A DNA stretch of 64,000 bases from Scytonema millei VB511283 (lineage in GTDB: Bacteria; Cyanobacteriota; Cyanobacteriia; Cyanobacteriales; Chroococcidiopsidaceae): assembly GCF_000817735.3 (NCBI RefSeq), contig NZ_JTJC03000008.1, forward strand, positions 62,001 through 126,000, written 5' to 3'. The position numbers and the translations under genes are program-made. Numbering within the stretch: position 1 is the first letter of the stretch; each line of letters starts with the position of its first letter. Shown here piece after piece: positions 6,705-38,675 of the stretch. The notes below the pieces were generated by a model that saw only the letters and a program-made list of their open reading frames with translations, was not told the origin of the DNA and searched no databases.

Positions 6705-7403
6705 TTTTCCTCCTAATACTCAAATGAATGTCTCTACGCGATCGCTATTGCTGGATGGAACTAAGGATTTTAAGTATTAGCCTTAGCGCGTTCTTCTACA
6801 AAAAGTAGATAAATCTCTGCAAGTTCTTCACTTTTAAAAATCTTGTCAATCCGAGTAGCCAGTGTTTAAAACCACTCTCGCAATTCATCTTTACTTACAG
6901 ACTTTTAGTTAATACCATCCATCTTTGACTGGTCTGGGCTTTTGGTTCTGGAACTGTATCGGGCTAGATGGCAGTTCCTCGCTTGCAGACCTAGCAGTCG
7001 AGCGCGTTATTACTAGCTTCTATGCTGTAGCCAAAATTTACATCAGTCTGTAGATTTAGCTTGGCTCTACCAAAAGAAGGGGAGCTACTATGTAATACTG
7101 CATATCTATTTTTTGAATAAGTAATACATCACAAAGAAACTAACTAGATGCTGTCAGATTATTAAATAGATTTGATATAAAAGAGTTAGACGATTGGATC
7201 GAACCAGCGATCGCTTTGGTTGGTTTGCTTTTTCGCTGGAATCGTCGATCCCCTTTTAATCCTAAACCTGGGTAGGGTTTAGCCGTCGTTGGTTTCACAG
7301 TAAAATTAGCGTCCTCCCCAACTTTTCCACTTTTTTAGTTCAACCTGGAATTAACCTTATTTCTCAAGCTTGACGCGCGATCGCCCAAGCACCCCTCGAA
7401 GTT
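6705..7403. other. 700-base non-coding spacer
   Basis: No reading frame here looks coding. It lies between the 5' end of the minus-strand stress gene and the plus-strand M48 protease gene and must carry both promoters. The only structured element I recognise is the TTTTCCAC motif at 7312-7340, described separately. HIP1 cores occur near 6740 and 7209. Confidence 0.5.
7312..7340 (+). promoter_or_regulatory. Recurrent TTTTCCAC motif, copy 1 (before M48 protease)
   Basis: The segment reads CCTCCCCAACTTTTCCAC followed by a run of T and TAG. It lies about 65 bases before the M48 protease ATG at 7404. It aligns with similar blocks at 9711, 14228 (minus), 14266, 25501, 26491 and 38647. A promoter or operator role is inference. 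Confidence 0.5.
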
Positions 7404-8234
7404 ATGTCTAACATTTCTCCCCGCCGCCCTTGGTTTTATCCATTAATTACCTCTTCAGTCGCAATTGGTGTCGTTGTCGGTGCGCCTCAACCTGCCCCAG
7501 CCGCTCCTTTGTGGGAATTGCTGCTTCGCGGCGCTCAAGTCTATCAACTTTACAACGTTTCCGATCGAGAAGAAGTCCAGCTAGGCAAGCAGATTAACCA
7601 GCAGTTGGTTGGCGAACAGTTTCAACTTTATAACAATGCTCGCATCAATAACTATGTCGATCGCATCGGTCAGCGATTGGCAAAAAACAGCACTCGCCCA
7701 GACATCCCCTACACGTTTCAAGTCGTCAAGGACGACAGTATCAATGCCTTTGCTACTTCTGGCGGCTACGTTTACGTCACTACGGGCTTACTCAAAGCCG
7801 CAGATAATGAAGCACAACTAGCGGGTGTATTGGCACACGAAATCGGTCACATCGCCGAAAGACATCTAATCGAACAGATGCGAGAAACTGCGATCGCACG
7901 CGGTCTGGCTTCTGCTGCTGGTCTAGATGAAAGTACGGCAGTGCAATTAGGTGTAGAACTGGCTTTGCGCCGTCCCAATAGCCGCTCTGATGAGTTCCAA
8001 GCCGATGCCAGAGGCGTACAAACTTTAGGAAAAGCTGGTTACGCCCAGGTTGCTATGATTAACTTTCTAGAAAAGTTACGCAGCCAGCGATCGGTTCCTA
8101 CATTTCTAAGTACCCACCCTGCAACAGGCGATCGCATTGCCAGACTGGAAAAAATTATCGACTCCCAACAAGCAAATCGAGGTGCAGGATTAAATGAATC
8201 TAACTATCAGGCACAAACCCAACCGTTGAACTAG
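7404..8234 (+). CDS. M48-family zinc metalloprotease, exported
   Basis: The 276-aa protein has an N-terminal signal sequence with an Ala-Pro-Ala-rich cleavage region near residue 34, then a single M48 peptidase domain. The zinc motif HEIGHIAERH (residues about 145-154) and the downstream glutamate segment RSDEFQADARG complete the metal site. Residues before HExxH (NAFATSGGYVYVTTGLL) match the BepA/LoiP/Oma1-like subgroup used in periplasmic quality control of envelope proteins. There are no TPR repeats, so it is shorter than BepA and nearer LoiP. A recurrent spacer motif about 65 bases upstream may control it. The substrate is unknown. Confidence 0.9.
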   Translation: MSNISPRRPWFYPLITSSVAIGVVVGAPQPAPAAPLWELLLRGAQVYQLYNVSDREEVQLGKQINQQLVGEQFQLYNNARINNYVDRIGQRLAKNSTRPDIPYTFQVVKDDSINAFATSGGYVYVTTGLLKAADNEAQLAGVLAHEIGHIAERHLIEQMRETAIARGLASAAGLDESTAVQLGVELALRRPNSRSDEFQADARGVQTLGKAGYAQVAMINFLEKLRSQRSVPTFLSTHPATGDRIARLEKIIDSQQANRGAGLNESNYQAQTQPLN

Positions 8235-8241
8235 TAAACAA

Positions 8242-8272
8242 GTTAAAAGTCAAAAGTCAAAAGTCAAAAGTC
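8242..8272. repeat. Heptamer tandem repeat (AAAGTCA type)
   Basis: About four copies of AAAGTCA lie between the M48 protease stop and the YihY gene. The same unit occurs at 561, 34675 and 34787. Confidence 0.85.
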
Positions 8273-8305
8273 GGGAACTCAACATCAAGATCGAGTAGGG
8301 GTTTA

Positions 8306-9181
8306 ATGATGAAGCGCGGCTTTTCTGCAAAGACTATTTGGTTGCTGCTTAAGGATACTACAACGAAGTGGCAGAAGGATAAAGTATCTCTGTGGGCAGC
8401 CGCGATTGCTTTTTATACGATTTTTTCCATAGCACCTTTGCTGATAATTGCGATCGCCATTGCTGGTGCAGTATTTGGTCGAGAAACTGCCCAAAATCAA
8501 ATTGTAGGGCAAGTTCAAGAACTGATCGGCAAGCAGGGAGCGCAAGCCGTTCAAGTGATGATTCAAAATGCTCAGCAGCCAGGTTCGGGGGGGACTTTAG
8601 CAACTCTGTTTGGGATTGCCACGCTGCTGCTAGGCGCATCTGGTATTTTCGGACAACTGCAAGAGGCATTGAATACGATTTGGAATGTTCAACCACAGCC
8701 AGGAATAAATATTAAAAACTTCGTGCAAAAACGTCTGCTATCGTTTGCAATGGTACTAGTCATCGGCTTTTTGCTGATAGTATCTCTGATTGTCAGTGCT
8801 GTACTGGCTGCGATTGCTAACTTTTTTGGTCATCTATTCCCAGCCTGGATTCGGCTGGGACAAATTTTGAATTTTATTTTTTCTTTGGGTGGAACAACAG
8901 TGCTATTTGCTCTAATTTATAAAGTTCTCCCCGATCTCAAAATTGCCTGGAGCAATCTTTGGATTGGAGCATCTGTTACTGCCTTGTTATTCAATTTTGG
9001 TAAATTTTTAATTGGGCTGTATCTGGGTAATAGCAGCATTGGCTCTAGTTATGGAGCAGCAAGTTCTTTAGTTATCGTATTAATTTGGGTCTTTTTTTCA
9101 GCTCAAATACTTCTATTGGGAGCAGAATTCACTCAAGTTTATACTGAGCAACACCGCTCCCAAATTACTGCTAATGAATAA
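8306..9181 (+). CDS. YihY/virulence factor BrkB family membrane protein
   Basis: The 291-aa integral membrane protein has about six hydrophobic helices. The N-terminal signature is typical of YihY proteins: WxKDKVSLWAAAIAFYTIFSIAPLLIIAIA (residues about 20-50), followed by an amphipathic segment with FGIATLLLGASGIFGQLQEALNTIW. The family was once misassigned as RNase BN, and its transport or scaffolding role is unclear. The start ATG at 8306 precedes the first conserved segment by about 15 residues. A second ATG at 8309 cannot be excluded. The protein is complete and of usual length. The upstream heptamer repeat probably separates it from the protease gene. Confidence 0.9.
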   Translation: MMKRGFSAKTIWLLLKDTTTKWQKDKVSLWAAAIAFYTIFSIAPLLIIAIAIAGAVFGRETAQNQIVGQVQELIGKQGAQAVQVMIQNAQQPGSGGTLATLFGIATLLLGASGIFGQLQEALNTIWNVQPQPGINIKNFVQKRLLSFAMVLVIGFLLIVSLIVSAVLAAIANFFGHLFPAWIRLGQILNFIFSLGGTTVLFALIYKVLPDLKIAWSNLWIGASVTALLFNFGKFLIGLYLGNSSIGSSYGAASSLVIVLIWVFFSAQILLLGAEFTQVYTEQHRSQITANE

Positions 9182-9803
9182 AGCTCCGAACATCGATTTT
9201 TCTTTCAAGAGTCATTGGACTATCTCCTTATTACTCTTGAGTGCCAGTTTATTGTTGCTATTCTGCCTCTGGGATTTTAGCTATAACTTACAGGCGCGAT
9301 CGCCCTGATACACCGATCTATCCTCGCTATCCACCATCTGAGTCACATCGTCTCCCAATAAGGCTGGATTCCGCTCTACAGTTGTGTTGTCTGCACTGCG
9401 CCAGTAGTCGCGTTGCTGCCCAAAGGGCATCAGGAGGAGATGCTGTATTTTATTATCCTCAGAGTCAGAATAAGCGGGAATGCCAATGGTAATTTCTGAG
9501 TGAGGGACGTTTAGGTGCAAGTTACGATAGTCCTCAGAAGGATGTTTTTTTGAAAAAATTGGTATTCTTTTGCTCGTAACACTTCTGCACTAGCCTGAGA
9601 TTGCAGTTCAACATTTACCTTATGCTTGGATGGTAAGGTAATCCATCTCTACACTTTGCAATCGATTTAGCGAACGAGGCAAGATCGGTCTTAAGTTAGA
9701 GTTCGTACTTTCTCCACGAGTTTTCCACTATCTCTGTCTATCTTCAAACTATAGCCAATTCAATTTGGCTGTAAAGTTGATGTCGAGGAGCTTGGAGAAA
9801 TAG
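9182..9803. other. Degenerate spacer with a headless open frame
   Basis: About 620 bases without an intact gene. On the minus strand a frame from about 9545 to 9281 is open and has gene-like codon use (for example DDVTQMVDSEDRSVYQGDRA near its end), but its only start is a TTG at 9520 without a ribosome site. I read it as a possible remnant of an unrecognised gene. The remainder, from 9545 to 9800, holds a recurrent motif at 9711 and no gene. Confidence 0.35.
9711..9740 (+). promoter_or_regulatory. Recurrent TTTTCCAC motif, copy 2 (before rhodanese remnant)
   Basis: This is the clearest copy: TCTCCACGAGTTTTCCAC followed by TATCTCTGTC. It lies about 95 bases upstream of the broken rhodanese gene, which suggests that the lost gene was once under the same control. 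The role is inferred from recurrence. Confidence 0.5.
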
Positions 9804-10106
9804 CATGACTCTTTACCCCTGAAACACCTGCGTGAATGGACTGTGCATGAGTTGAACCAGCACAAAGACGATCCCAATGTCACGGTGTTGGATGTCCGCT
9901 CGGATGAAGAGTACAGCAACGGTAACGTGCCTGGTGCTAACCACATTTACGTACCGCATTTAGAAGAGCATCTTGACGAGTTAGATAAGATTCAAACTAT
10001 TGCCACCTATTGCGGCAGTGGTTATCGAGCTTCAATCGCTGCCAGTCTTCTACAAAAGCATGGTTTTGAGCAGGTCATCAACGTCCCTGGTTCGTGGAAT
10101 GCTTGA
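9804..10106 (+). pseudogene. Rhodanese-domain remnant of a larger (probably MBL-fold/rhodanese) gene
   Basis: The frame is open only from the TAG at 9801-9803 to TGA at 10104-10106. A GTG at 9843 is the only possible start, and it falls inside conserved sequence, because the coding similarity already begins before it (LKHLREWTVHELNQ). The segment is a good C-terminal rhodanese domain: VTVLDVRSDEEY, GxVPGAxHI, and the active-site loop CGSGYRAS. It ends abruptly at GSWNA, where a tryptophan is expected, so TGA may stand for TGG. The N-terminal part, which in related proteins is a metallo-beta-lactamase domain, is missing. I call it a decayed gene; a short functional rhodanese is possible. Confidence 0.6.
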
Positions 10107-10192: not shown

Positions 10193-11113
10193 ATGAAAAA
10201 AATTAAGTACGTTCTATTAAGTTTATTAGGCTTAATTAGTGCAATTCTGATTTGGGGTTTGCTCGAACCATACCTAATTGACGTAGAACCACAAGTTGCT
10301 GCAATTCCCAATCTACCTGCTGCTTGGTCAGGGCAAAAAGTTGCAGTTATCGGTGATTGGCAGATAGGAATGTGGCTGGACAACACCCCTACTATTCGTC
10401 AAATTGTACGGCAAATAGTTAAAGAGCGTCCCGCGATCGCGTTGATTATTGGTGACTTTATTTACTCTCCAGGTCAGAACCCCAGCGAAGAAATTAACCA
10501 AGCAATCGAGCTTGTCCGTCCGCTACCTGCCTCCGGTATCGCAACCTATGCCGTGTTGGGCAATCACGATTATGGCATGAAAGCAAAGGATGCTCCTCCA
10601 AACGTAACTTTAGCCGCTAATTTAGCTGAGTCTTTAGAAGCGGCAGGCGTACAAGTGTTGAAAAATGAAGCTGTTGCGATCGTACCGTCACAAGATAGAA
10701 GCCAAACATCAGCTAAAAGCGATCGCATCTATTTAGTAGGTGTAGGATCGCACTGGGCTAATGAGGACAAACCAGCAGCAGCACTGGCTGAAGTACCAGA
10801 CTCAGCACCCAGGTTTGTCATGATGCATAATCCCGAATCTTTTGCCCTGTTTCCCGCCAATACTGCACCTGTGGCTGTAGCAGGACACACTCACGGAGGA
10901 CAAATTCGCTTGCCATTCACTCCAGAATGGTCTTGGTTGACTTTTACTAAAAAAGATCGGGTTCATGCTGACGGCTGGAGCGATGGATTTGGAAAGCCAG
11001 GAAACCATCTTTACGTGAACCGAGGGATTGGTTTTAGCATCATACCAATCAGAATCAATTGCCCGCCTGAAATTACTTTGTTTGCACTTCAGCCAGCCCG
11101 CGAATCTGCCTAA
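10193..11113 (+). CDS. Membrane-anchored metallophosphoesterase (YkuE-like)
   Basis: The 306-aa protein has an N-terminal membrane anchor (residues 4-24) and a calcineurin-like phosphoesterase domain. Metal-ligand motifs are visible in order: GDWQIG (near residue 54), GDFIYSP (near 88), GNHDYG (near 123), a single His in MMHNPE (near 207), and GHTHGGQ (near 232). The first motif is usually DxH and here reads DWQ, which could weaken one metal site. Such proteins hydrolyse phosphodiesters or lipid-linked phosphates on the outer face of the membrane; the substrate cannot be deduced. The start ATG is directly in front of the Lys-rich anchor region. It appears to be a single-gene unit. Confidence 0.88.
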   Translation: MKKIKYVLLSLLGLISAILIWGLLEPYLIDVEPQVAAIPNLPAAWSGQKVAVIGDWQIGMWLDNTPTIRQIVRQIVKERPAIALIIGDFIYSPGQNPSEEINQAIELVRPLPASGIATYAVLGNHDYGMKAKDAPPNVTLAANLAESLEAAGVQVLKNEAVAIVPSQDRSQTSAKSDRIYLVGVGSHWANEDKPAAALAEVPDSAPRFVMMHNPESFALFPANTAPVAVAGHTHGGQIRLPFTPEWSWLTFTKKDRVHADGWSDGFGKPGNHLYVNRGIGFSIIPIRINCPPEITLFALQPARESA

Positions 11114-13410: not shown

Positions 13411-13560
13411 TTAATATTTTCTTTCAGATGTTTGTGGCGATCGCTCCCACATGCTTTTCCATTCGACTTGATTCGCCCCCAATAAGTTAGTAACTACTGC
13501 GATCGCCAACAAGCTAGCCAGGAAAATTCCGACAGTAAACCAGTTGAGCTGATGGTACAT
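13411..13560 (-). CDS. Possible 49-aa single-pass membrane protein
   Basis: A short frame starts at an ATG within the end of the SH3 gene, overlapping it by 47 bases. It encodes one hydrophobic helix (WFTVGIFLASLLAIAVVTNL) and a polar tail. AGGGGAT lies immediately before the ATG, closer than usual. The layout would fit a coupled small membrane protein behind the SH3 gene, but the overlap and lack of a recognised family leave it uncertain. Confidence 0.3.
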   Translation of the reverse strand: MYHQLNWFTVGIFLASLLAIAVVTNLLGANQVEWKSMWERSPQTSERKY

Positions 13561-14107
13561 ATCCCCTAAAAGGAATAGAAATTGGCACCCAACCATTTGC
13601 TCCTCTACCTGTAAGTATGACTCTGCGACCGCTAGAAATATAACCGACTACCTTGCTATCATTTGAGGGTTCTTGTCTTGCCGGAATTCCTCGATTGGCA
13701 ACGACTCGACGGCAACTGCTGGGTGGTGGGGCTTTAGCTTGACAGCGACCGATCCAATCTGCATAGACATATCCCTTCAAAGGTGCAGAAATAGGAACCC
13801 AGTTATTCGTAATCCCGCCTGCAACTTCTACGTTACGCCCGTAGGCAATAATCCCAACTGCATTACTATAAACTGTGGGCTGTTCTCGGACGTACAAACC
13901 TCTTTTAGCAATGACTTGGTTGCAACTATACGAGCGTTGTGCTATTTGATTTCCGATTTCAGCAGCTAGTAGATCTTTTGAGTTAGAAGACGTATTATCC
14001 CGCAATTCAATTGCACTGACGGAAAGCATGGGAGTGGCAAGAATTGCTGCTGTTAAGAAAGGTATTGTTAATGCTGAATATTCTTTTGAGCGATGTTTCC
14101 AATTCAT
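13514..14107 (-). CDS. Secreted protein with two bacterial SH3 domains
   Basis: The 197-aa protein has a signal peptide (hydrophobic FLTAAILATPMLSVSA) and two SH3b-type repeats. The repeats are ANRGxxxRxEP-like blocks: IAKRGLYVREQPTVYSNAVG, and VANRGIPARQEPSNDSKVVG about 70 residues later. Each ends in WVPIS(A/I)P(L/F)(K/R)GYV. Such domains bind peptidoglycan or other cell-wall ligands. The frame extends upstream to 14170, but the ATG at 14107 is preferred because AGGA stands 8 bases before it and the signal peptide follows directly. A recurrent motif lies about 120 bases upstream on the same strand. Confidence 0.85.
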   Translation of the reverse strand: MNWKHRSKEYSALTIPFLTAAILATPMLSVSAIELRDNTSSNSKDLLAAEIGNQIAQRSYSCNQVIAKRGLYVREQPTVYSNAVGIIAYGRNVEVAGGITNNWVPISAPLKGYVYADWIGRCQAKAPPPSSCRRVVANRGIPARQEPSNDSKVVGYISSGRRVILTGRGANGWVPISIPFRGYVPSAQLVYCRNFPG

Positions 14108-14227
14108 AAAGAGCGTCCTGCAATTGACAATTAAAGATTTTTGATTTGCACGATCTGTAAAGCTATCCAAGCTACGCCTTTAGATAGATGTTTGCTCGGT
14201 TTACGTGTCTGCGAATATATTTTGACC

Positions 14228-14256
14228 GAAAAAGGTGCAGATCTCGTGGAAAAAAT
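14228..14256 (-). promoter_or_regulatory. Recurrent motif, copy 3 (minus strand, before SH3 gene)
   Basis: Read on the minus strand, this block is TTTTTCCACGAG, then ATCTG, then CACCTTTTTCGG. It matches the copy at 25501 especially well at TTTCCACGAG and CACCTTTTT. It lies about 120 bases before the SH3 gene start, in the same orientation relative to its gene as copies 1, 5 and 7. Confidence 0.45.
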
Positions 14257-14265
14257 CACTTTGTC

Positions 14266-14292
14266 TTCTCCCCTAGTTTTCCACCTTTTTAG
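14266..14292 (+). promoter_or_regulatory. Recurrent TTTTCCAC motif, copy 4 (plus strand)
   Basis: The segment reads TTCTCCCCTAGTTTTCCACC followed by TTTTTAG, close to copy 1. It points toward the 3' end of the minus-strand GH31 gene, so if it is a promoter the product would be an unannotated or antisense RNA. Alternatively it is a protein-binding site that works in either direction. Confidence 0.45.
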
Positions 14293-14492
14293 ATTTAAAT
14301 AGATCTGCCCTACGTCATACCTGCAATTTGGTTTTCTGCTTGGGGTGTAGTGACGCGACAGATTATTTACACAGTTGCAGACATCACTTCAAAGGTAATT
14401 TAGGGAGCGATCTTGAGTTACATTGCTCGTAAACGCAGCAAAACATTGGAATACGAACCCGCGATCGCAACTTCGCGACGATAATAAGTTCA

Positions 14493-18879: not shown

Positions 18880-19040
18880 GTTGAGAGTGCCTGCTGCACC
18901 ATTTCCTGATATTGCTTTTTCGGCTTCAGTCCAGCAATTCGAGTCAATTCTTGCTGCTGTTTAAATAGCACCACGGTTGGAGCATTTCTGACCCCCATGT
19001 CGATCGCTAATTCGGGTTCCTCAACCATGTCAATTTCGAC
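18876..19040 (-). pseudogene. 3' exon fragment of an interrupted thioredoxin-like gene
   Basis: This is the C-terminal 54 codons of a small thioredoxin, starting at VEIDMVEEPELAIDMGV and including the cis-Pro loop NAPTVVLF. The upstream part of the frame toward 19190 is intron sequence and should not be read as protein. Joined to 21466-21648 by removing 19041-21465, it restores an uninterrupted 115-codon frame. Because the intron lies antisense, splicing cannot repair the mRNA of this gene. Confidence 0.88.
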
Positions 19041-21648: not shown

Positions 21649-21668
21649 GTTTGCTCTCCTAAGAACGC

Positions 21669-25355: not shown

Positions 25356-25500
25356 AGCCAAAACCGAGTTCTAGAGAGTCACGGCTTGAGTTAATTTAAA
25401 TAGAGACACAGCAGGCGATCGCTCAAACAAAATTTCTTAAACGTCCTGTCCCTCGGTCGCGACAACATACCCAGGCACTCAAGCCAGCCCTGAAAATTTC

Positions 25501-25530
25501 GTTTCCACGAGTTTTACACCTTTTTTCCCT
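25501..25530 (+). promoter_or_regulatory. Recurrent motif, copy 5 (before ion channel)
   Basis: The segment reads GTTTCCACGAGTTTTACACC followed by TTTTTTCCCT. It ends about 77 bases before the ion-channel start at 25607. It shares the CCACGAGTTTT core with the copy at 9711 and CACCTTTTT with 14228. Confidence 0.5.
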
Positions 25531-25606
25531 AAGATACAGCAGGCAATCGCCACTGAATTGCTCTAAAAATGACAAAGGGACAGCAGCTATGAATCATCAC
25601 AGATAG

Positions 25607-26413
25607 ATGAAAACCTCAGAGAAACACCTACTCAATCGAGAACGGCAGGAGATTTTGCAACAGCTAGAAGACTGGCTGGAAACACCCATGCTCCTGCTCA
25701 GTTTTGCATGGTTGGCGTTGTTTGTCGTTGAGTTAATTTGGGGTTTGACTCCTTTACTCCAAGCGATCGGCACGGTGATTTGGATAATTTTTATTCTAGA
25801 TTTCATCCTCGAATTTACTCTAGCTCCACATAAGCTTGCCTATCTGCAACGCAACTGGCTGACAGTTATTTCCCTCCCACTACCCGCACTGCGCCTGTTT
25901 AGGTTCGTGCGCGTTTTACGGGTGCTAAATACTGCACGGGCAGCTCGTGGCATTCGGTTACTACGTGTCATTACCCGCACGAATCGGGGAATGCGGGCGA
26001 TCGGTGCGAGTTTAGGTCGTCGCGGTTTCGGCTACGTTGTTACAACAACGCTAGTAATTACCCTAGTTGGAGCAGCGGGGATGTATGCGTTTGAAAGCAA
26101 TCCTCCTGATGGGCGCGGTCTAAATGACTACGGCTCGGCGCTGTGGTGGACGGCAATGCTCATGACCACACTGGGTTCGGAGTATTGGCCCCAAACTCCC
26201 GAAGGACGAGTGCTTTGCTTCCTTCTGGCGCTGTATGCTTTTGCCGTATTTGGATACTTGACAGCTGCGATCGCCACATTTTTTATCGGTCGCGATGCCG
26301 ATGATGACGAGGCGGAAATCGCAGGAGCTAAATCTATAGCAGCACTGCACGCCGAAATTACAGCTTTGCGTCAAGAGATTCAGGCGCTATCTCAGCAGAA
26401 ATTGGAACCGTGA
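25607..26413 (+). CDS. Voltage-gated-like ion channel with non-canonical filter
   Basis: The 268-aa membrane protein has the six-helix layout of voltage-gated channels. It has an S4-like helix rich in spaced arginines (RLFRFVRVLRVLNTARAARG, residues about 93-112), a pore loop after S5, and S6 (FLLALYAFAVFGYLTAAIA). The pore loop reads TTLGSEYWP, not the TVGYG of potassium channels, so ion selectivity is uncertain. A charged tail with a coiled-coil-like end (ALHAEITALRQEIQAL) closes the protein. It heads a cluster of channels and mechanosensitive proteins and probably works in ion or osmotic balance. Family-level call is safe; selectivity is not. Confidence 0.85.
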   Translation: MKTSEKHLLNRERQEILQQLEDWLETPMLLLSFAWLALFVVELIWGLTPLLQAIGTVIWIIFILDFILEFTLAPHKLAYLQRNWLTVISLPLPALRLFRFVRVLRVLNTARAARGIRLLRVITRTNRGMRAIGASLGRRGFGYVVTTTLVITLVGAAGMYAFESNPPDGRGLNDYGSALWWTAMLMTTLGSEYWPQTPEGRVLCFLLALYAFAVFGYLTAAIATFFIGRDADDDEAEIAGAKSIAALHAEITALRQEIQALSQQKLEP

Positions 26414-26490
26414 ATTTGGTGGCTAACCCATTCAGGAAGTTGCTATGTCTATCTAAACTTTAAGAGCGATTGTTTGAAAATTTCGCTCGC

Positions 26491-26520
26491 TCTCCCCGAC
26501 TTTTCCACTATTTGGATCTA
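26491..26520 (+). promoter_or_regulatory. Recurrent motif, copy 6 (before DUF389 gene)
   Basis: The segment reads TCTCCCCGACTTTTCCAC followed by TATTTGGATCTA. It lies about 190 bases before the preferred GTG start of the DUF389 gene. Aligned with copies 1, 2 and 7 it shares CTCC, TTTTCCACT and the T-rich end. Confidence 0.5.
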
Positions 26521-26712
26521 ACTTCAAAACACAGGTAGTTAAACCGAGTTAACTGTTGTTCATAACTCCTGTTTCAACAAATGCTGGCGTTGCGTGTCTT
26601 ATGAGCAATTTAGTTAAGATTTTCCCGGAAAAATTGCTAAATCGTTACGGCGATCGCGCAACGCTCTTTACTATTGAAATATGGAAGCGATCGCATTAGA
26701 TATAAGGATAAC

Positions 26713-27996
26713 GTGCGTCAGTTACTAATACAGGTTCCGCGTGGCTGTGGCAAACAAGTTTTGGAAATTGCCAAGGCATTTGACGGAGCAAACTTAACAC
26801 TAATTGAGGCGACGGGGAGCGATGGCGAGATCGATTTAGCGATCGCCCACATCTCTAATAGCAAAGTTGAAGGACTGCTGGGAGAGTTGGAATCTCTGCC
26901 ACAACTACACGTCACGCTGATCCCGCAGGGAGTGATGGCGCTCCAGCCACCACCAGAAGAAGCACCGCAGCAAGTCACAAATGTAGAACTTCGCAGCCCG
27001 ATTGAAATCTTTCTGGCGGGTTTGCAAAGCGTCGGCTCTTGGAAAGGTTTTCTGGGATATGCGGCGGCTGCGGGTGTGGTAGTTTGGATTGGCTTGTATA
27101 CGAATACGAATTATCTACTGGTTGCCGCGATGTTGATTGCACCGTTTGCGGGTCCAGCAATGAATCTGGCGATCGCTACGGCACGGGGAGATATCACTTT
27201 GCTCAAGCGCAGCATCATCCGTTACTTTAGCGCCTTGAGCGTAACAATTTTAGTCACTCTCGCCCTCAGCCTGATTCTGCGGCAGGAAATTCCCACAACT
27301 CAAATGATACAAACGAGCGAATTATCCTCAGTGGCGGTGTTGCTGCCGTTAGCAGCTGGCGCAGCTGGGGCGCTCAATCTTGTGCAATCTCAAAGAAGTA
27401 GCTTGGTATCTGGTGCAGCAGTTGGAATGCTCGTCGCTGCCTCGCTAGCACCGCCTGCTGGACTCGTGGGAATGGCAGTGGCGATCGGCAGGTGGGATAT
27501 GGCAACGAGCGGATTGTTCGTCCTCTTGCTACAACTGGTGGGAATCAATTTGACTGCCACGATATTATTTCGCGTCTTTGGCTTATCTACGCAAGGATCT
27601 CGCTATCGGCGGGGCAAGCAATGGGTATTTGCGGCGACTCTGGCTGTGACTGTGGCAGCTCTGGGAGGATTATTAACTTGGCAGTTGAGCAATCCGCCAA
27701 ATTTTCAACGTTCTACCCGCGCCCAACGAGCTACGGCTGAAATTCAGCAAGTGGTAGAAGCAAATAATACTGCCAACTTAGTCGAGGCTAACATCCGCTT
27801 TACTCGCTCGGAAATTCCAGGACAGAATACGCTGCTGGGTGTGGTTTACGTCCAGCGTCACGCCGGAGTCACTGCATCAACAGAGGAAATCCGCACCGCG
27901 CTCACCCGTCAGATCCAAACGCGCTTATTAGAACAAGGTTTTAACGTGACACCGTTGATTGATGTCAACGTCTTAGAAGCACCAACTAAAACTTGA
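26713..27996 (+). CDS. DUF389 membrane protein
   Basis: The protein of about 427 residues has a cytoplasmic N-terminal alpha/beta domain (RQLLIQVPRGCGKQVLEIAK, residues 2-90), then at least six hydrophobic segments of the DUF389 core (YLLVAAMLIAPFAGPAMNLA, TARGDITLLKRS, and GAAVGMLVAASLAPPAGLVG). A C-terminal extracytoplasmic domain follows. DUF389 function is unknown. The frame reaches back to 26674, but I chose the GTG at 26713 because AAGGATA stands 5 bases before it and the first conserved strand follows. It sits between a channel gene and two MscS genes on the same strand, so a role in ion or membrane stress is plausible inference. Confidence 0.85.
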   Translation: MRQLLIQVPRGCGKQVLEIAKAFDGANLTLIEATGSDGEIDLAIAHISNSKVEGLLGELESLPQLHVTLIPQGVMALQPPPEEAPQQVTNVELRSPIEIFLAGLQSVGSWKGFLGYAAAAGVVVWIGLYTNTNYLLVAAMLIAPFAGPAMNLAIATARGDITLLKRSIIRYFSALSVTILVTLALSLILRQEIPTTQMIQTSELSSVAVLLPLAAGAAGALNLVQSQRSSLVSGAAVGMLVAASLAPPAGLVGMAVAIGRWDMATSGLFVLLLQLVGINLTATILFRVFGLSTQGSRYRRGKQWVFAATLAVTVAALGGLLTWQLSNPPNFQRSTRAQRATAEIQQVVEANNTANLVEANIRFTRSEIPGQNTLLGVVYVQRHAGVTASTEEIRTALTRQIQTRLLEQGFNVTPLIDVNVLEAPTKT

Positions 27997-28110: not shown

Positions 28111-29076
28111 TTGGAGCAAGTTTTTAAATTGATTAGCTTCAATACCGAAATTGGGCTAAAGGTATTAGCTACGCTCGCCTTCCTGATTGTCCTCTGGTTG
28201 CTGCGTCGTGTCGCTAATGCTTTTATTCGAGAATCGATCCGCGATCGCTACAACGGGCGGATTTGGTTTTGGGCAGGGCAGGGATTAAATTTAGTTACAG
28301 CAGTATTGTTAATTTTAGGGCTGCTCGAAATTTGGTTTGACAACCCGAATCGGCTTGCTACTGCAATCGGTTTAGTGACAGCAGGTGTAGCCTTTGCCCT
28401 GCAAAAAGTCATTACGGCGATCGCGGGTTATTTTGTAATTTTGCGGAGTAATATTTTTAGCGTTGGCGATCGGATTACGATGGGTGGCGTGCGCGGCGAT
28501 GTCATTGCTTTGGGTTTTATCCATACGAAAATTATGGAAATGGGACAGCCAGTTTCGTTCCAAGATTCAACTTCTGCGAGTTGGGTGAAAAGCCGTCAAT
28601 TTACTGGCAGAGTTGTCAGTATCACCAACGACAAAATTTTTGACCAGCCCGTTTACAACTACACGCAAGATTTCCCCTATCTTTGGGAAGAAATTAGCAT
28701 TCCCATTTCTTATACAGCCGACCGAGATCGTGCCGAACAAATTTTATTAGAATGCGCCGCCCGTCATACAGAAAATATTAACCAGATGAGTCAGGAATCT
28801 TTGAGAGTGATGCGCGATCGCTATTTTCTCCATTCTCACGATTTAACACCCAAGGTTTACTATCGCATTACTAACAACTGGCTGGAACTGACTGTCCGTT
28901 TTGTCGTCAGAGAACACGGAATTCGCGATCTCAAAGATGCCGTTAGCCGCGATCTTCTCAAAGCTTTCGATGCTGCTGGAATTAGAATTGCAACGACGAC
29001 TTATAATGTTGTCGGATTTCCTCCACTTCAGATCGAGAATAGCTTTAGTAATACAAAAGAAAATTCACAGCATTAA
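28111..29076 (+). CDS. MscS-family mechanosensitive channel (first of two)
   Basis: The 321-aa protein has three N-terminal membrane helices. The pore-lining segment is Gly/Ala-rich (ATAIGLVTAGVAFALQKVIT), followed by the beta domain (VGDRITMGGVRGDVIALGFI) and the alpha/beta vestibule. An insertion around residues 150-200 (SFQDSTSASWVKSRQFTGRV) is longer than in E. coli MscS. The likely start is TTG 28111, because AGGAGG lies 6 bases upstream and no ATG fits. It should open under membrane tension and release solutes upon hypo-osmotic shock. A second, different MscS gene starts 36 bases downstream. Confidence 0.9.
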   Translation: MEQVFKLISFNTEIGLKVLATLAFLIVLWLLRRVANAFIRESIRDRYNGRIWFWAGQGLNLVTAVLLILGLLEIWFDNPNRLATAIGLVTAGVAFALQKVITAIAGYFVILRSNIFSVGDRITMGGVRGDVIALGFIHTKIMEMGQPVSFQDSTSASWVKSRQFTGRVVSITNDKIFDQPVYNYTQDFPYLWEEISIPISYTADRDRAEQILLECAARHTENINQMSQESLRVMRDRYFLHSHDLTPKVYYRITNNWLELTVRFVVREHGIRDLKDAVSRDLLKAFDAAGIRIATTTYNVVGFPPLQIENSFSNTKENSQH

Positions 29077-29112: not shown

Positions 29113-30135
29113 ATGAATTTTCAAGCAGCAATAACAGCAGCATGGCAGAAAATTGGCGGATTAATTGACGGCTTTATTATCATGCTGCCAAACATTGTTT
29201 TGGCGAGCGTTGTTTTTATCATATTTTTCTTCGCTGCTCGCTGGCTGAAGTTATTAGTCAAACGCCTTACCCGCAGGCATCGGCAAGCGCGAAATTTAGG
29301 CATGGTACTGGGGCGATTGGCTCAGGGAGCTGTCATTCTCCTGGGCTTGTTTGTCGCACTTTCAATAGTTATCCCTACATTTAGAGCCGGAGATTTGGTA
29401 CAGCTACTCGGTATTAGTGGTGTAGCAATTGGTTTTGCTTTCCGCGATATTCTACAAAACTTTTTAGCTGGGATTTTGATTCTTTTAACCGAACCGTTCA
29501 AAATTGAGGATCAAATCGTTTTCAAAGACTTTGAAGGCACGGTAGAAAACATCGAGACACGCGCTACGACAATTAGAACTTACGACGGTCGCCGAATTGT
29601 CATTCCCAATTCCGAATTATTTACAAATTCGGTGACTGTTAACACTGCTTTTAATGCTCGCCGGATTGAATATGATGTTGGCATTGGCTACGGTGACGAT
29701 GTTAACCAAGCAAAACGATTGATGCTAGAAGCAATTTATAGCGTGGATGATGTTTTGCGATCTCCGGCTGCCGATGTTTTGGTACTAGAACTAGCCGAAA
29801 GTAGCGTTAATATTCGCGCGAGGTGGTGGATTAAACCGCCAAGACGGATAGACGATCTCAACTCGCGAGACAAGGTAATTTCTGCGATTAAACAAAAGCT
29901 CTACGTGGAAAATGGGATTGACTTGCCTTATCCTACACGCCAAATTTTATTCCACGACCAAACCGAAGAGACAGATGGCGATCGCTCTCGTCAGCGTGAA
30001 GGGTGGCCTGCTGGCAACAAAGAAGTCCCCAAACCGCGCAGCATTAGCGGTTCTCTCAAACGAATCGCTCAAATCCAAGCGTCAAAAAACGGTAATGGCA
30101 GCGATCGAAATCTCACAGCGGACGACAACCGATGA
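29113..30135 (+). CDS. MscS-family mechanosensitive channel (second of two)
   Basis: The 340-aa protein is a near-canonical small MscS. It has three membrane helices, with pore segment QLLGISGVAIGFAFRDILQN then FLAGILILLTEPFKIEDQIV, and the beta-domain motif ENIETRATTIRTYDGRRIVI followed by PNSELFTN. The C-terminal tail of about 50 residues is basic and polar. It differs from the first MscS in the beta domain, so the two are not a recent duplication. The DUF2254 gene overlaps its stop by four bases (ATGA at 30132), so the two are translationally coupled. Confidence 0.93.
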   Translation: MNFQAAITAAWQKIGGLIDGFIIMLPNIVLASVVFIIFFFAARWLKLLVKRLTRRHRQARNLGMVLGRLAQGAVILLGLFVALSIVIPTFRAGDLVQLLGISGVAIGFAFRDILQNFLAGILILLTEPFKIEDQIVFKDFEGTVENIETRATTIRTYDGRRIVIPNSELFTNSVTVNTAFNARRIEYDVGIGYGDDVNQAKRLMLEAIYSVDDVLRSPAADVLVLELAESSVNIRARWWIKPPRRIDDLNSRDKVISAIKQKLYVENGIDLPYPTRQILFHDQTEETDGDRSRQREGWPAGNKEVPKPRSISGSLKRIAQIQASKNGNGSDRNLTADDNR

Positions 30136-31457
30136 AAAACGTCAAAATTGGCAAAATTTGGGACTCGCTCCACTCAAGCTACTGGTTCTTGCCGACAATT
30201 ATGGCAGTTATCGCGATCGCCCTGGCATTTACGATGCTGAATCTCGATCGCGCTGGTTACTACGGTCCGCTGGAAAAATGGGGCTGGATCTATACAGGTG
30301 GTGCTAACGGAGCGCGAGAAGTGCTTTCATCTGTAGCTGGTTCGGTGATTTCTGTGGCTGCGACTGCTTTCTCAATTACGATCGTGGCGCTTCAGCTAGC
30401 TGCGTCTAATTACACTCCTCGCGTGCTGCGTAACTTTATGCAGGATACGGGCAATCAACTTGTCTTGGGAACATTTATTAGTACGTTCATCTACAGCCTA
30501 CTGGTACTGCGAACTGTACGCGGTGATGGCGATGATTACGACTCTTTTGTACCGCAGCTTGCAGTTACCGTTGGGTTGTTGTTAGGACTTGCCAGTATTG
30601 GCGTACTGATTTACTTTATCCATCACGCCTCTACAATTATTCAGGCATCCCATATCATTATGGAGGCTAGTAAAGAGCTTCACCAAGCCATCGATCGCTT
30701 GTTTCCCGAAAAGCTAGGGCGGAGTTTGCCCAATGCCAAGCCGCACGATCGCGCTATCCCAGCTAATTTCGATGTAGATGCTTATCCCGTCAAAGCTAAG
30801 AGTAGCGGTTATGTTCAAGCGATCGACGAGGAAGAATTAATGCAAATCGCTGGCGGTCGCTCTTTACTATTGCAAATAAAATCTCGACCAGGCAGGTTTG
30901 TGGTCAAGGGCAGCGATTTAGTCATGGTGTTTCCAGGGGATAAGGTCAATCGGAAACTGAGCGATCGCATCAACGATGCTTTTATGTTTGGCAGACAACG
31001 CACCGAACAACAGGATGTCGAGTTTCCCGTGAATCAATTAGTTGACATTGCTCTACGTGCCATTTCTCCTGGGATCAACGACCCGACGACGGCAATTCAG
31101 TGTATTGACCAACTAAGTGCTGGATTATCTCATTTAGCGCAAAGAGAAATTCCTTCTGCCTACCGCTACGACGACGATAACAACCTGCGCGTCATTGCCG
31201 AACCGTTCAACTTTGCCGGACTAACTGATGCAGCTTTCAACCAAATTCGTCAGTATGGCAAATCGGATGTGGGAGTCATAATTCGGATGTTAGAAGCGAT
31301 CGCTACTATTGCGCGTTATACCCAAAACGAGCCAGACCGTGCGGCACTACGCCGCCACGCCGACATGATTCTACATGATAGTCACGAAGCAGTTTCTCAA
31401 GAGTTGGATCGGCAAGATATCGAACAGCGATATCAAGCAGTTTTGAAAGTGCTTTAA
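30132..31457 (+). CDS. DUF2254 membrane protein
   Basis: The 441-aa protein has four N-terminal membrane segments (residues about 15-165), the first pair divided by the Gly/Tyr-rich loop DRAGYYGPLEKWGWIYTGGA. The conserved block AREVLSSVAGSVISVAATAF, then SITIVALQLAASNYTPRVLR, is the family signature. The large C-terminal half is soluble and contains a conserved patch NQLVDIALRAISPGINDPTT. The role of DUF2254 is unknown. Overlap with the preceding MscS gene by four bases points to a shared mRNA and perhaps a joint function at the membrane. Confidence 0.9.
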   Translation: MKNVKIGKIWDSLHSSYWFLPTIMAVIAIALAFTMLNLDRAGYYGPLEKWGWIYTGGANGAREVLSSVAGSVISVAATAFSITIVALQLAASNYTPRVLRNFMQDTGNQLVLGTFISTFIYSLLVLRTVRGDGDDYDSFVPQLAVTVGLLLGLASIGVLIYFIHHASTIIQASHIIMEASKELHQAIDRLFPEKLGRSLPNAKPHDRAIPANFDVDAYPVKAKSSGYVQAIDEEELMQIAGGRSLLLQIKSRPGRFVVKGSDLVMVFPGDKVNRKLSDRINDAFMFGRQRTEQQDVEFPVNQLVDIALRAISPGINDPTTAIQCIDQLSAGLSHLAQREIPSAYRYDDDNNLRVIAEPFNFAGLTDAAFNQIRQYGKSDVGVIIRMLEAIATIARYTQNEPDRAALRRHADMILHDSHEAVSQELDRQDIEQRYQAVLKVL

Positions 31458-33353: not shown

Positions 33354-34670
33354 TCAGCTATTTGAAAGAATTCTACCTCGACACTCTCCAAAACCAACTC
33401 TGGCATAGCCTTCCTGCTCGCAGTATCCGCGCAGCTCAATTTCATCTCCGTCATTTAGGTAGGAACTTACCTCGCCTGTTGGTAGTTGAATCGGCTTTGA
33501 GCCACGCTGAGTGATTTCGAGTAAACATCCTTGCGTTCCTGCTTCAGCACCAGAAACTGTGCCACTGGCTAGCAAATCTCCAGAGCGGAGATTGCAACCA
33601 TTACTTGAGTGGTGAGCGAGCATCTGAGCTAAAGTCCAATACATCGACTTGAAAGAAGCGCGACTTAAGCAAAACGGCTGCATTTCTGCTGCACGCATTT
33701 GCTCTGAGCGGATTAGTGCTTCTACCGTAAGGTCAATGCCACCTAGTTTAGTATCATGTGCTGAGGAAAGATAAGGCAGTGGTAGCGGATCTCCCTGGGG
33801 ACGTTGAAAAGATGCACAACGGAATGGTGCTAGAGCTTCTAGGGTTACTACCCAAGGAGAAATCGTCGTTGCGAAGCTTTTGGATAAGAAGGGACCGAGG
33901 GGCTGATATTCCCAAGCTTGAATATCTCTTGCCGACCAATCATTCACCAAGCAAAGCCCAAATATGTGTTCCTCCACATCGTCAATTGAGATGGGGTGAC
34001 CTAGCTGATTTCCATTACTAATGAAGAACCCAACTTCCAATTCGTAGTCCAAATGTTGAGAAAATCCGAAACTTGGCACTGATTCCCCAGAGTTTTTCCT
34101 CTGACCCTTGGGACGCGCGATCGCAGTGCCGCTAGGCACGATGGAAGAAGCACGACCGTGGTAAGCGATCGGGACGTATTTGTAGTTAGGCAGGAGTGGA
34201 TTGTCGGGACGAAACAACTTACCAACATTAGTGGCATGAAAGATCGAAGCGTAGAAATCAGTATAGTCGCCAATATTCGCAGGTAATAAAAGTTCTGCCT
34301 CAGACATCGAGCAAAGAATTTTGCTTTCCAAAGGGGGATTTTGGGCATCGGCTCGTAACAGATGACTCAAGCGATTGCGCAATGCTGAGGCTGCTTTACT
34401 TCCCATCGCCATCAATTGATTTAATTTAGGTGCAGTACATGCTGCTTGTAGTTCCTGGGGCAGTTCTTGCAGCAATCCAGCTTGGCAACACGCAGTTAAA
34501 TCTAAAATTCGATCGCCGATCGCCACCCCAATTCGGGAATTATTGCTGTTCCGAGGTCGAAACACGCCAAACGGCAGGTTTTGGATCGGAAAATCAGTGT
34601 TCTTTTGATTTGCCGAGTCAACCCAACTGCGTAAATTTGGATTGTGGGTGGAATTGATGGGACGGATCAT
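33354..34670 (-). CDS. fahA: Fumarylacetoacetase
   Basis: The 438-aa protein has the two-domain structure of fumarylacetoacetate hydrolase. The N-terminal SH3-like domain (residues 1-120, with NLPFGVF) is followed by the catalytic domain with DYTDFYASIFHATNVGKLFR, YHGRASSIVPSG, the metal-binding segment DYELEVGFFI, and NDWSARDIQAWEYQPLGPFL. It cleaves fumarylacetoacetate to fumarate and acetoacetate, the last step of tyrosine breakdown. Other steps of the pathway are not in this window. A 288-aa unknown protein is encoded just upstream on the same strand, across a repeat-filled spacer. Confidence 0.95.
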   Translation of the reverse strand: MIRPINSTHNPNLRSWVDSANQKNTDFPIQNLPFGVFRPRNSNNSRIGVAIGDRILDLTACCQAGLLQELPQELQAACTAPKLNQLMAMGSKAASALRNRLSHLLRADAQNPPLESKILCSMSEAELLLPANIGDYTDFYASIFHATNVGKLFRPDNPLLPNYKYVPIAYHGRASSIVPSGTAIARPKGQRKNSGESVPSFGFSQHLDYELEVGFFISNGNQLGHPISIDDVEEHIFGLCLVNDWSARDIQAWEYQPLGPFLSKSFATTISPWVVTLEALAPFRCASFQRPQGDPLPLPYLSSAHDTKLGGIDLTVEALIRSEQMRAAEMQPFCLSRASFKSMYWTLAQMLAHHSSNGCNLRSGDLLASGTVSGAEAGTQGCLLEITQRGSKPIQLPTGEVSSYLNDGDEIELRGYCEQEGYARVGFGECRGRILSNS

Positions 34671-34674
34671 AGTA

Positions 34675-34829
34675 AGTCAAAAGTCAAAAGTCAAAAGTCA
34701 AAAGTCAAAAGTCAAAAATTGTCGGGGCGGGTTCACCAGAAATACTGGTCAGAGTCAAAGACAATTGGTAAACCCGCCCGTACAGAAGTCAAAAGTCAAA
34801 AGTCAAAAGTCAAAAGTCAAAAGTCAAAA
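34675..34829. repeat. Two heptamer arrays flanking an inverted repeat
   Basis: Six copies of AAAGTCA-type heptamers (34675-34719) and six more (34787-34829) enclose a 67-base element. The element's ends pair imperfectly: CGGGGCGGGTTCACC on one side and GGTAAACCCGCCCG on the other. The structure looks like a REP or MITE-like insertion within a tandem heptamer array, between fahA and the upstream 288-aa gene. Heptamer frames on the plus strand that look open are repeat artefacts. Confidence 0.8.
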
Positions 34830-34856
34830 ATATTTCACACACCACGCACCACTTTC

Positions 34857-36828: not shown

Positions 36829-36831
36829 AGC

Positions 36832-37150: not shown

Positions 37151-37167
37151 ACCACAACGATCGGTTC

Positions 37168-38151
37168 ATGACTCAAATAGAATCGCTATATAGAATGACA
37201 AGCAAAGATTTTGAATTTCCCCGATCGCTTTTCCCTAATGACATGGAATCAAAAATTGGTAGGGTTTTGCTTATTGGAGTGACTGGTGGCACTGGCAAAA
37301 ACGCAGTCAAGGGATTTCTCGATACTGGAGTTACTGACTTACACGCCATCACTAGAAAAATCGACCTGAGCCGCCCCAATTTGTCAAAGATCAGTGATGC
37401 AGGCGTTGAGCTAGTTGAGGCTAACTTGGATGATGAAGCATCGCTTCAAGCAGCTTTGAGGGGAATTTCGGCTGTCTACTGCCACGGTTTGTCTGCCGAT
37501 GCTGCTAAACCCGATCCACAAGAGATCGAGAGAGCGCACCGACTGGCACGAGCGGCTGTTGATGCCAAGATCGAGCATTTGGTGTATAACTCCGCAGGTG
37601 GAGCAGAGAGAAATTCTGGAGTCAGCCATATCGAGCAGAAGTATCAGGTGGAGCAAGTTTTCAAACAGGCTGGCTTGCCAACAACTATGCTCAGAGCTTG
37701 TCTATTCATGGAAGAGTTTTGGAAGAAGTACACGCGACCATCCATCCTCAAAGGGGTCTTCTCCTTTTCGCTTCAGCCCGACCGACCGCTACATCTAATT
37801 ACAACTAGGGATATGGGACGCATTGCTGCTTATGTCATGAAAAACGCACAAAAGTACATTGGTCAAGAAATCGAGCTGGCAGGCGACGTGCTAACCCCTC
37901 TACAAATGGCGCAGAGCTTCTCAGAAGCACAGTCCATGCCAGTTGTCTACAGAGAAATACCTGCATGGATATTTCTACTGCTTTGGCGATGGGAACTATT
38001 TGCCCTGATTAGCTGGTATCGCACTCAAGGCTATCAAGCCGATGTTAGGCGCTTAAGAGAAGCGGAATTTCCCACACTCCTGACTACATTTAGTGAATTT
38101 CTGGCAGAAACTCACTGGGCAAACAAAGAACTTACTTACGAAAATCTGTAA
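37168..38151 (+). CDS. NAD(P)-binding atypical SDR (NmrA-like) protein
   Basis: The 327-aa protein has a Rossmann fold with the nucleotide motif GVTGGTGKNAVKGFL (residues about 37-51), then VELVEANLDDEASLQAAL, and the middle strand HLVYNSAGGAERNSGVSHIE. The catalytic YxxxK of classical SDRs is not in place, although KYQVEQ occurs. It belongs to the atypical NmrA/HSCARG-like group that senses or uses NAD(P). It is complete, about 30 residues longer at the N-terminus than usual; a start at the ATG near residue 25 is possible. Substrate unknown. Confidence 0.85.
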   Translation: MTQIESLYRMTSKDFEFPRSLFPNDMESKIGRVLLIGVTGGTGKNAVKGFLDTGVTDLHAITRKIDLSRPNLSKISDAGVELVEANLDDEASLQAALRGISAVYCHGLSADAAKPDPQEIERAHRLARAAVDAKIEHLVYNSAGGAERNSGVSHIEQKYQVEQVFKQAGLPTTMLRACLFMEEFWKKYTRPSILKGVFSFSLQPDRPLHLITTRDMGRIAAYVMKNAQKYIGQEIELAGDVLTPLQMAQSFSEAQSMPVVYREIPAWIFLLLWRWELFALISWYRTQGYQADVRRLREAEFPTLLTTFSEFLAETHWANKELTYENL

Positions 38152-38188
38152 GCGCAGGCGATCGCTCCCACTCCTTCTAATCCTATCG

Positions 38189-38497
38189 TCAAGCTTCGGC
38201 ACTTTTCGCACCGTGCGCGTGCAAGCAGTGGTAGAGGGTTCTGCGAGTGAATTGGCGGATAACCTAGAATCGATCGGCAAACCGAATCGCAGCAAAGCAG
38301 AGAGCGTCGCGCTGTTAGGCGGTTCCTTTATCAATACTTTGGGTAGAGGAAATCCTACACTAGGACTTGCCACAATAGCAGGCTCTACCCTACTGTCCGA
38401 CTTCCAAGACAATATTACCGAGATTGGTGAGGCTTTAGGCATTGATGAATTACGCTTTCCTACCGCAGCAGTAGAAATTGGAGCGTGGCTTTTTTGA
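38189..38497 (+). pseudogene. TamB C-terminal fragment
   Basis: The frame overlapping and following the SDR stop contains SSFGTFRTVRVQAVVEGSAS then ELADNLE, and VALLGGSFINTLGRGNPTLG. These are the typical C-terminal repeats of the translocation and assembly module protein TamB (DUF490 domain). The remaining 1500 or more residues expected for cyanobacterial TamB are absent, and the last strands are missing as well. The ATG at 38093 that opens this frame lies in the SDR gene and is not the TamB start. It is a small remnant without likely function. Confidence 0.65.
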
Positions 38498-38646
38498 GAC
38501 TTACATAGCAGGTTCGCAGCAATACCTTCCCTATCTGAGTGCTGATTATGCTCGGTCTATTAGTCAAATGCCTTTAACTCTAAGCTTAGTACAATCTCTA
38601 CCTTCAGATAGTTTGACTCAATAAATCAGACGATATCTACCGTTTG

Positions 38647-38675
38647 GCTACACCAGTTTTCTACTATTTCTATGT
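38647..38675 (+). promoter_or_regulatory. Recurrent motif, copy 7 (before RND adaptor)
   Basis: The segment reads GCTACACCAGTTTTCTAC followed by TATTTCTATG. It aligns with the 9711 copy at CAC.AGTTTTC.ACTAT.TCT. It ends about 90 bases before the adaptor start at 38766. Confidence 0.4.

Follow-up and report, generated by a model that had tools for sequence, protein, structure and literature searches.

Description

The DNA analysed here (the window) is a stretch of 64,000 nucleotides (nt) from the cyanobacterium Scytonema millei VB511283, bases 62001-126000 of contig NZ_JTJC03000008.1 (C8) in a 5.97-Mb genome of 17 contigs. It carries seven copies of an intergenic element among genes for an M48 protease, a rhodanese remnant, an SH3-domain protein, an ion channel, a DUF389 membrane protein, and the adaptor of an RND pump (Table 1). 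Genes for an OmpR-type response regulator and its adjoining hybrid kinase lie outside the window, to its left, amid the cluster of sites. The repeated motif is very probably an on-switch of envelope and stress genes in cyanobacteria of desert type that is read by this two-component regulator. Below, G000 denotes the window genome, G001 and so on its relatives, and C1, C3, and C8 contigs; G000 positions without a prefix are those of the window. G000 and G002 share a genus label (Chroococcidiopsis).

Sites and box structure

An 18-mer used earlier as the motif matched the window five times at up to three mismatches, against 0.04 expected (100 shuffles). This block is real, and it proved to be one part of a longer element in which a TAnnnT -10-like hexamer follows downstream at a fixed distance. 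An iterated 42-nt matrix applied to C8:1-145900 gave 17 sites with scores of 26.6-53.2, the next best place scoring 8.6, and no place reached 8 when the reversed sequence was scanned with it as a control. All 17 lie within 65 kb (C8:35486-100645), ten to the left of the window (C8:35486-61069) and seven inside it, and the matrix found no copy in C8:1-35 kb or C8:100.7-145.9 kb. The seven copies of the original prediction were thus all recovered and are all real, but the set is larger, comprising the 17 in the 65-kb region plus one on C3. The latter was added by R1, a sequence-only covariance model made from the 17 sites and scanned over the whole genome, and brings G000 to 18 sites (C3:552216, 28.5 bits, matrix score 41.7); its 42 bases are identical (42/42) in G000, G001, and G002. 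Other genome-wide R1 matches reached at most 18.8 bits, the best of them in a C1 stretch with several TTTTCCACA boxes that is read as oriC. The first pattern scan of the genome gave 20 matches versus 4 for a backwards control pattern, so a few hits by chance are to be expected. Its matches outside C8 were C3:552238, C1:864791, and C1:1454151, of which C3 alone holds up; the C1 pair sits among TTTTCCACA boxes, was taken as coincidence, and was rejected.

The consensus of 115 distinct sites from 12 genomes is TYTCCMC-NAGT-TTTCCAC-TATT-N5-YTANNNTNNA. The box within it, TYTCCMC-N4-TTTCCAC, is 18 nt long: a 7-nt unit occurs twice in direct orientation with a period of 11 bp (logo columns 2-8 and 13-19), and the end of the box lies 10 nt before the hexamer. 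When sites outside G000 were chosen by columns 0-19 alone, to avoid circularity, TAnnnT was found at offset 30 in 89 of 106 (1.8 expected) and at offsets 26-29, 31, and 32 in none of the 106. The columns at the -35 position read CMCNAGTT, unlike the -35 hexamer TTGACA, which suggests a promoter that requires an activator.

Placement was compared over the 121 sites with a matrix score of at least 24 in the 12 genomes, lower-scoring sites being left out. Matches are not equally common in coding and non-coding DNA: only eight of the 121 lie inside open reading frames (ORFs) of at least 80 amino acids (aa), though such ORFs account for 79.5% of the DNA scanned (binomial 2.5e-67). For 111 of the 121 sites it is the start of the next ORF that lies ahead, versus 54 of the 121 behind (Fisher 1.7e-16), and a co-oriented ORF start is at most 550 nt away for 107. 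As had been predicted, most window copies stand ahead of same-strand genes, and for six of the seven an ORF on the same strand starts 42-143 nt beyond the 42-mer (starts being the predicted, longest-ORF starts); the copy said to precede a rhodanese remnant (9709+) is among the six.

Conservation in orthologous spacers was also found. Six targets were compared across genera: for five of them the identity of the block is 86-90%, and for the ion channel it is 76%, versus 18-51%, mostly 23-44%, for the flanks. Within the genus some spacers, such as that of the RND adaptor, are near-identical throughout and thus uninformative on block conservation; the RND adaptor spacers were compared within genus and excluded from the between-genus figures. 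Sites also precede the same targets at dispersed loci. On a 6.66-Mb contig of G001 they stand ahead of orthologs of the HtrA-type protease (6492157), RND adaptor (3380834), SH3 protein (1982254, with an opposed partner at 1982201), and DUF389 protein (2270217, one ORF between), and 953 nt ahead of an MscS-type channel (3617959); G002 has one ahead of its RND adaptor (2398054), and G006 one ahead of its ion channel (2738705). The simplest reading of dispersed sites before the same targets is a trans-acting factor, and clustering is unnecessary for function.

Regulator and co-occurrence

Within C8:25-112 kb of G000, three ORFs alone have relatives in the fetched DNA of all 12 genomes, namely those of the regulator, the kinase, and the receiver (six ORF groups were common to all of the first 7 clusters compared). 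Of these three the regulator alone has a DNA-binding domain, and its relatives in the 12 genomes are 61-88% identical. A site directed away from the kinase gene lies within 500 nt upstream of it in 12 of 12 genomes.

In 30 genomes (G000 included), near full-length regulator matches (68-100%) occur in eight, which are the eight with motif clusters, and the remaining regulator matches do not exceed 379 bits. The gap between 490 and 379 bits in that search set a cut-off of E≤1e-118, and regulator matches above it were left out among 291 genomes of the order; the threshold of at least three motif matches per genome was chosen after the motif counts had been seen. The 12 genomes with the regulator are the same 12 with at least three motif matches at E≤0.001 (hypergeometric 1.6e-21, a figure that ignores phylogeny). 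Four of these 12 carriers belong to three other families, and three genera contain both carriers and non-carriers: G014 versus G004 and G010 in g3, G146 and G183 versus G036 and G062 in g25, and G174 versus G105 in g61 (a single weak match is present in each of G062 and G105). Of the 292 genomes of a phylum sample, which overlaps the order set, two have the regulator (E≤1e-115), and they are the sole two with more than one motif match. A regulator search of contigs returned mostly other regulators among the best 80 of 592 matches. Carriers include Chroococcidiopsis thermalis PCC 7203, Gloeocapsopsis dulcis (G013; desert source), and Gloeocapsa sp. PCC 7428 (G014).

The recognition helix reads TIKS[YH]IKSLR in all 12 regulators (TVKS in G013), and AVRTQIKGLR in two paralogs from genomes without motif sets. 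Nostoc favosum and Calothrix PCC 7716 have regulators with this helix, and Desmonostoc has one without it; the expectation set from the helix was that sites would be present beside the first two and absent beside the third. Of 31 named cyanobacterial-type loci scanned with R1 (30 also with the matrix), two have strong sites, N. favosum and Calothrix PCC 7716, and the same two alone have TIKSHIKSLR. In Calothrix the sites stand ahead of genes for two SLH proteins, a PRC-barrel protein, and the receiver, and in N. favosum ahead of DUF389. Regulators with other helices and higher local identity (L136, 69.5%; L157, 67%) have no strong site; L136 has one 14-bit match.

Proposed circuit and targets

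Each copy probably, at about 80%, combines a -10 element with an activator box for a single response regulator of the OmpR/PhoB type, as judged from sequence. The regulator-type site at promoters that the original prediction allowed for agrees with the layout, in which the tandem repeat replaces the -35 and is followed by a sigma70-type -10, and with the co-occurrence with an OmpR-family regulator. In the proposed circuit, the membrane kinase would sense stress, and phosphate would pass from the kinase His to the kinase REC, to the HPt on the regulator, and on to the regulator REC. A phosphorylated regulator dimer would bind TYTCCMC-N4-TTTCCAC head-to-tail and, placed at the -35 position, bring ordinary sigma70-type RNA polymerase to the TAnnnT that lies 10 nt further downstream; in this way all 18 G000 sites would switch on envelope quality-control and osmotic genes and the receiver gene. 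Four points of this circuit are what we infer: binding, the phosphorelay, the direction of control (activation and not repression, taken from box geometry), and the kind of signal.

By Pfam, the genes behind G000 sites include proteases (trypsin-like of HtrA type, M48, and a DUF3267 putative peptidase), SLH-fasciclin, PRC-barrel, and SH3 proteins, the RND adaptor with its pump, the ion channel, DUF389 followed by MscS-type and DUF2254 genes, a protein of 248 aa that matches eCIS-core, one with a beta-lactamase fold, the rhodanese, and the receiver. Two further genes encode lipoprotein-like proteins that are related to each other and match no Pfam family. These targets suggest an envelope-stress regulon (quality control and osmotic), and the target families likewise support the stress and membrane regulon first predicted. 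Our guess from targets and hosts is that the signal is drying or osmotic stress. A wider view is more doubtful and offered tentatively: the 65-kb stretch could be a self-regulated portable regulon (kinase, regulator with HPt, receiver, and at least a dozen envelope, protease, and channel genes, each with the same stereotyped promoter) that is gained or lost mostly as one unit across families of the order and is a main switch of the envelope response by which Chroococcidiopsis and Gloeocapsopsis survive drying.

Four proteins encoded at C8:34648, 44646, 47963, and 62619 (the last at window 619-1488) share an 'IGKTVTV' type stretch. They have lipoprotein-like N-termini by eye and no Pfam-A match above the cut-off, two of them are directly behind sites, and they possibly form an uncharacterised envelope family.

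Features of the window

Table 1. Sites, target genes, and other features; positions are those of the window unless prefixed with C8.
Feature	Position	Strand	Details
Response regulator, OmpR-type	C8:52531-53718		REC (PF00072 6.8e-30), winged-helix Trans_reg_C (PF00486 8.9e-23), HPt
Hybrid kinase, adjoins regulator	C8:53831-55939		DUF4118, PAS, HisKA, HATPase, REC
Single-domain receiver, near regulator	C8:57694-58128
Site	7311..7352	+	matrix 41.8; 51 nt to M48 protease start
M48 protease (target)	7404-8234	+	PF01435 E 5.6e-38
BrkB-type membrane protein, behind M48 gene	8306-9181		PF03631
Site, ahead of rhodanese remnant	9709..9750	+	matrix 50.9
Rhodanese-domain remnant	9843-10106		PF00581
Metallophosphoesterase, after rhodanese remnant	10193-11113		PF00149
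SH3-domain protein (target)	13514-14170	-	PF08239 E 2.8e-12
Site, weakest copy, ahead of SH3 gene	14213..14254	-	matrix 26.6; 22.3 bits
Site, strong, directed away from SH3 gene	14265..14306	+	matrix 36.7
ECF sigma factor	23323-23913	+	Pfam sigma-70 r2/r4
Site, ahead of ion channel	25500..25541	+	matrix 37.4; 65 nt to start
Ion channel (target)	25607-26413	+	PF00520 E 7.9e-12
Site, ahead of DUF389	26489..26530	+	matrix 50.5; 143 nt to start
DUF389 membrane protein (target)	26674-27996	+	PF04087 E 5.9e-29
MscS-type genes, co-oriented behind DUF389	28111-29076 and 29113-30135	+	Pfam
DUF2254, co-oriented behind MscS-type genes	30132-31457	+	Pfam
Site, ahead of RND adaptor	38645..38686	+	matrix 35.8; 79 nt to start
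RND membrane-fusion adaptor (target)	38766-40220	+	PF16576 E 8.3e-17
RND pump, after adaptor	40282-43458		PF00873

Most window sites have counterparts in relatives. The M48 orthologs of G001 and G002 are likewise preceded by a site, and in both genomes the site corresponding to 9709+ stands ahead of an ORF that is longer (200 and 167 aa), the two ORFs being members of one ortholog group. The opposed pair at the SH3 gene (14213-, 14265+) is present in G001 and G002 too. No co-oriented ORF start was found within 3.1 kb of 14265+, while a very similar site in G003 stands ahead of a 308-aa ORF, and the window copy may be an orphan promoter remaining after gene loss. The ion-channel site also occurs in G001, G002, and, at a distant locus, G006; the DUF389 site in G001 (distant locus, one ORF between) and N. 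favosum; and RND-adaptor orthologs at distant loci of G001 and G002 are preceded by a site.

In Calothrix sp. PCC 7716 (L133, 10531-14406), relatives of the ECF sigma factor (71%), its anti-sigma neighbour (59%), and the next gene (70%) adjoin the regulator. Tandem heptamers (AAAAGTC) lie at 8226-8299, 34660-34845, and 561-592; we take them to resemble the short tandemly repeated repeats known from cyanobacteria. The region 18876-21681 contains a group II intron with a plus-strand reverse transcriptase-maturase ORF (19661-21391) and Rfam RF00029 at 21388-21465. Two opposite-strand ORFs flank it and match thioredoxin profile positions 7-53 and 54-102, as if the intron had split one thioredoxin gene. 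Splicing from the host transcript should not be able to remove an intron that is antisense to its host gene.

Alternative explanations

Several observations weigh against the regulator as the reader of the box. The regulator and sites are mostly linked on one island, so co-occurrence alone does not name the reader; the helix argument is confounded with orthology; and the dispersed sites were found via the motif and are silent on how often relocated targets lack a site. The non-carriers G004 and G010 of genus g3 lack the regulator and also the HtrA and beta-lactamase-fold orthologs: G014 has a close HtrA ortholog (86%) and a beta-lactamase-fold ortholog (76%), where G004 and G010 have HtrA paralogs (59%) and, in place of the latter, either a 46% relative or nothing. 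DUF389 is present in G010 and G014 alike (68%), the G014 copy without a motif match nearby, so that this genus is uninformative on the loss of sites from retained targets. No G000 site points at the kinase or regulator gene, and there is thus no sign of direct autoregulation. Motif matches also occur apart from the regulator: 13 of the 291 genomes without it at the cut-off have one or two, and G012 (1.7e-6) and G008 (6.3e-6) each have one match as good as true sites. Among the 30 genomes at E≤0.1, G012, G020, and G024 have 3, 4, and 4 motif matches without a close regulator, the best E being 1.7e-6, 1e-4, and 0.049, respectively. The word 'stress', finally, comes from the target families alone.

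Some of these outlying sites have neighbours of their own. In G012, a strong site (C60:69831, L126) stands ahead of an SLH protein and a weaker one (C19:25081, L127) has a 56% identical regulator on one side and a PRC-barrel ORF on the other; they are perhaps a diverged version of the same circuit. G189, without the regulator at the cut-off, carries TTCAC/TGCAC variants at three motif-like sites in a stretch of 2.4 kb (C2:749028-751416, L232), which may be the box of a related regulator. A second kinase-receiver pair with a motif-like site just behind the receiver gene, in the same direction, lies at C3:549000-556000 (L120) of G000, its site preceding a 141-aa protein without a Pfam match, and a similar pair with a site is found in G243 (C319:7000-14000, L233; site C319:10464); these are possibly a paralogous or cross-regulated circuit.

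Another DNA-binding protein, for example an OmpR-type paralog, might read the box, with the linked kinase and regulator as passengers of the island. The paralogous kinase-receiver pairs beside motif-like sites (G000 C3:552216; G243 C319:10464) and the 56% identical regulator beside the G012 site C19:25081 fit this, but the presence of the regulator tracks the motif sets (12 of 12 carriers among the 291 genomes), whereas paralogs are common across genomes that lack motif sets, and the ones whose recognition helix was read differ in it, which makes such a reader unlikely. Still less credit can be given to the earlier proposal of an alternative-sigma promoter that the ECF sigma factor at 23323 would recognise. 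Its gene is located among the sites, Calothrix PCC 7716 has a related sigma operon next to the regulator, and a 48-50% identical sigma is present in G003, G009, G013, and G014. However, the sigma has no match at E≤1e-20 in the motif carriers G001, G002, and G006 (26, 19, and 5 motif matches at E≤0.1), and matches are found in G005, G007, G011, and G016, genomes without a motif match at E≤0.1; this phylogenetic profile rules it out as a general reader. The -10 TAnnnT is moreover of sigma70 type, and in neither G000 nor Calothrix does a site stand ahead of the sigma operon. The ECF sigma factor may be a neighbour in function, but it is not the reader of the box.

The clustering of copies in 65 kb and the repetition of the block would also fit a small mobile or spreading repeat without a regulatory role. 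Such a repeat is barely plausible given the divergence of flanks between genera (18-51%) beside the block (86-90%, ion channel 76%), the recurrence of placement ahead of orthologs in several genera, and the 111 of 121 sites that face a gene start. A conserved 5' leader RNA element, which the position upstream of same-strand genes would allow, has similarly little to recommend it: the 17 G000 sites yield 0 consensus pairs, the seven window sites have no Rfam match (the window alone was searched), and the block is upstream of the -10 and so would not be transcribed from that promoter. The cyanobacterial DnaA box is TTTTCCACA, which TTTTCCAC resembles, and the TTTTCCACA-rich place on C1 scores 18.8 bits; the copies could on this account be DnaA boxes or another replication or segregation signal. 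The TTTTCCACA nonamer is nonetheless not matched, its ninth base being A in 4 of 121 sites, and the conserved part spans two repeats and the -10 while the sites face gene starts, so that this is the most improbable of the explanations weighed.

Comparison with known systems

No report of this regulon was found in the open-access literature searched; three longer motif strings were absent from the papers among the matches listed, and a 10-nt string occurred in unrelated papers. A regulator, box, promoter layout, and target list are now given for the envelope-stress regulon, and the coordination of envelope protection with drying or osmotic stress in such cyanobacteria becomes testable.

The features of an OmpR/PhoB-type regulon that were found are a regulator with REC and Trans_reg_C domains, a tandem box of ~11 bp, ~10 bp to the -10, and an adjoining kinase. 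An excerpt of a review describes the PHO box as two 7-nt direct repeats with 4 nt between (PMC4415409), and excerpts of two other papers count the E. coli PhoB repeats as 8 bp plus a 3-bp linker, 10 bp upstream of the -10 TAN3T/A (PMC1906773), and give the spacing between PHO box and core promoter as strict (PMC10294691). On these excerpts, the element resembles E. coli PhoB/PHO box promoters in its 7-nt repeats, 4-nt gap, 11-bp period, ~10 bp to TANNNT, and lack of a -35, and by the 8-bp count (PMC1906773) the distance is 9 here versus 10, a match to within one base. The winged-helix regulator is a further likeness to PhoB. Unlike PhoB, the repeat here is TYTCCMC/TTTCCAC versus CTGTCAT, the regulator has a C-terminal HPt, and the targets are envelope and osmotic genes.

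RpaA, a cyanobacterial OmpR-family protein that acts in the clock, belongs to the same family (structure 9dvt; phmmer E 4e-42, residues 31-258) and is a more distant member of it. In the envelope stress systems CpxAR and BaeSR, two-component signalling governs a periplasmic protease of HtrA type and RND export; unlike systems of that type, the circuit here has a hybrid kinase and an HPt on the regulator. The SphS-SphR Pho regulon of cyanobacteria is similar in its PhoB-type logic. The ORFs at C8:38278-42264 are presumably a pst cluster, and no G000 site lies directly before the pst-like ORFs C8:38278-39381(+) or 41311-42264(-). On this ground, and because the consensus here differs from the SphR box, given as CTTAACCT in three 8-bp repeats in the excerpt of PMC1906773, the cyanobacterial Pho regulon was rejected.

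By target type, and going by literature excerpts, the circuit can be likened to the stress regulation of htrA and sll1483 by Hik34 and Hik33-Rre31 in Synechocystis. To our knowledge no common box is known for that regulation. In the excerpt of PMC6789579, Synechocystis htrA and the salt-induced periplasmic sll1483 are among the genes induced by many stresses.

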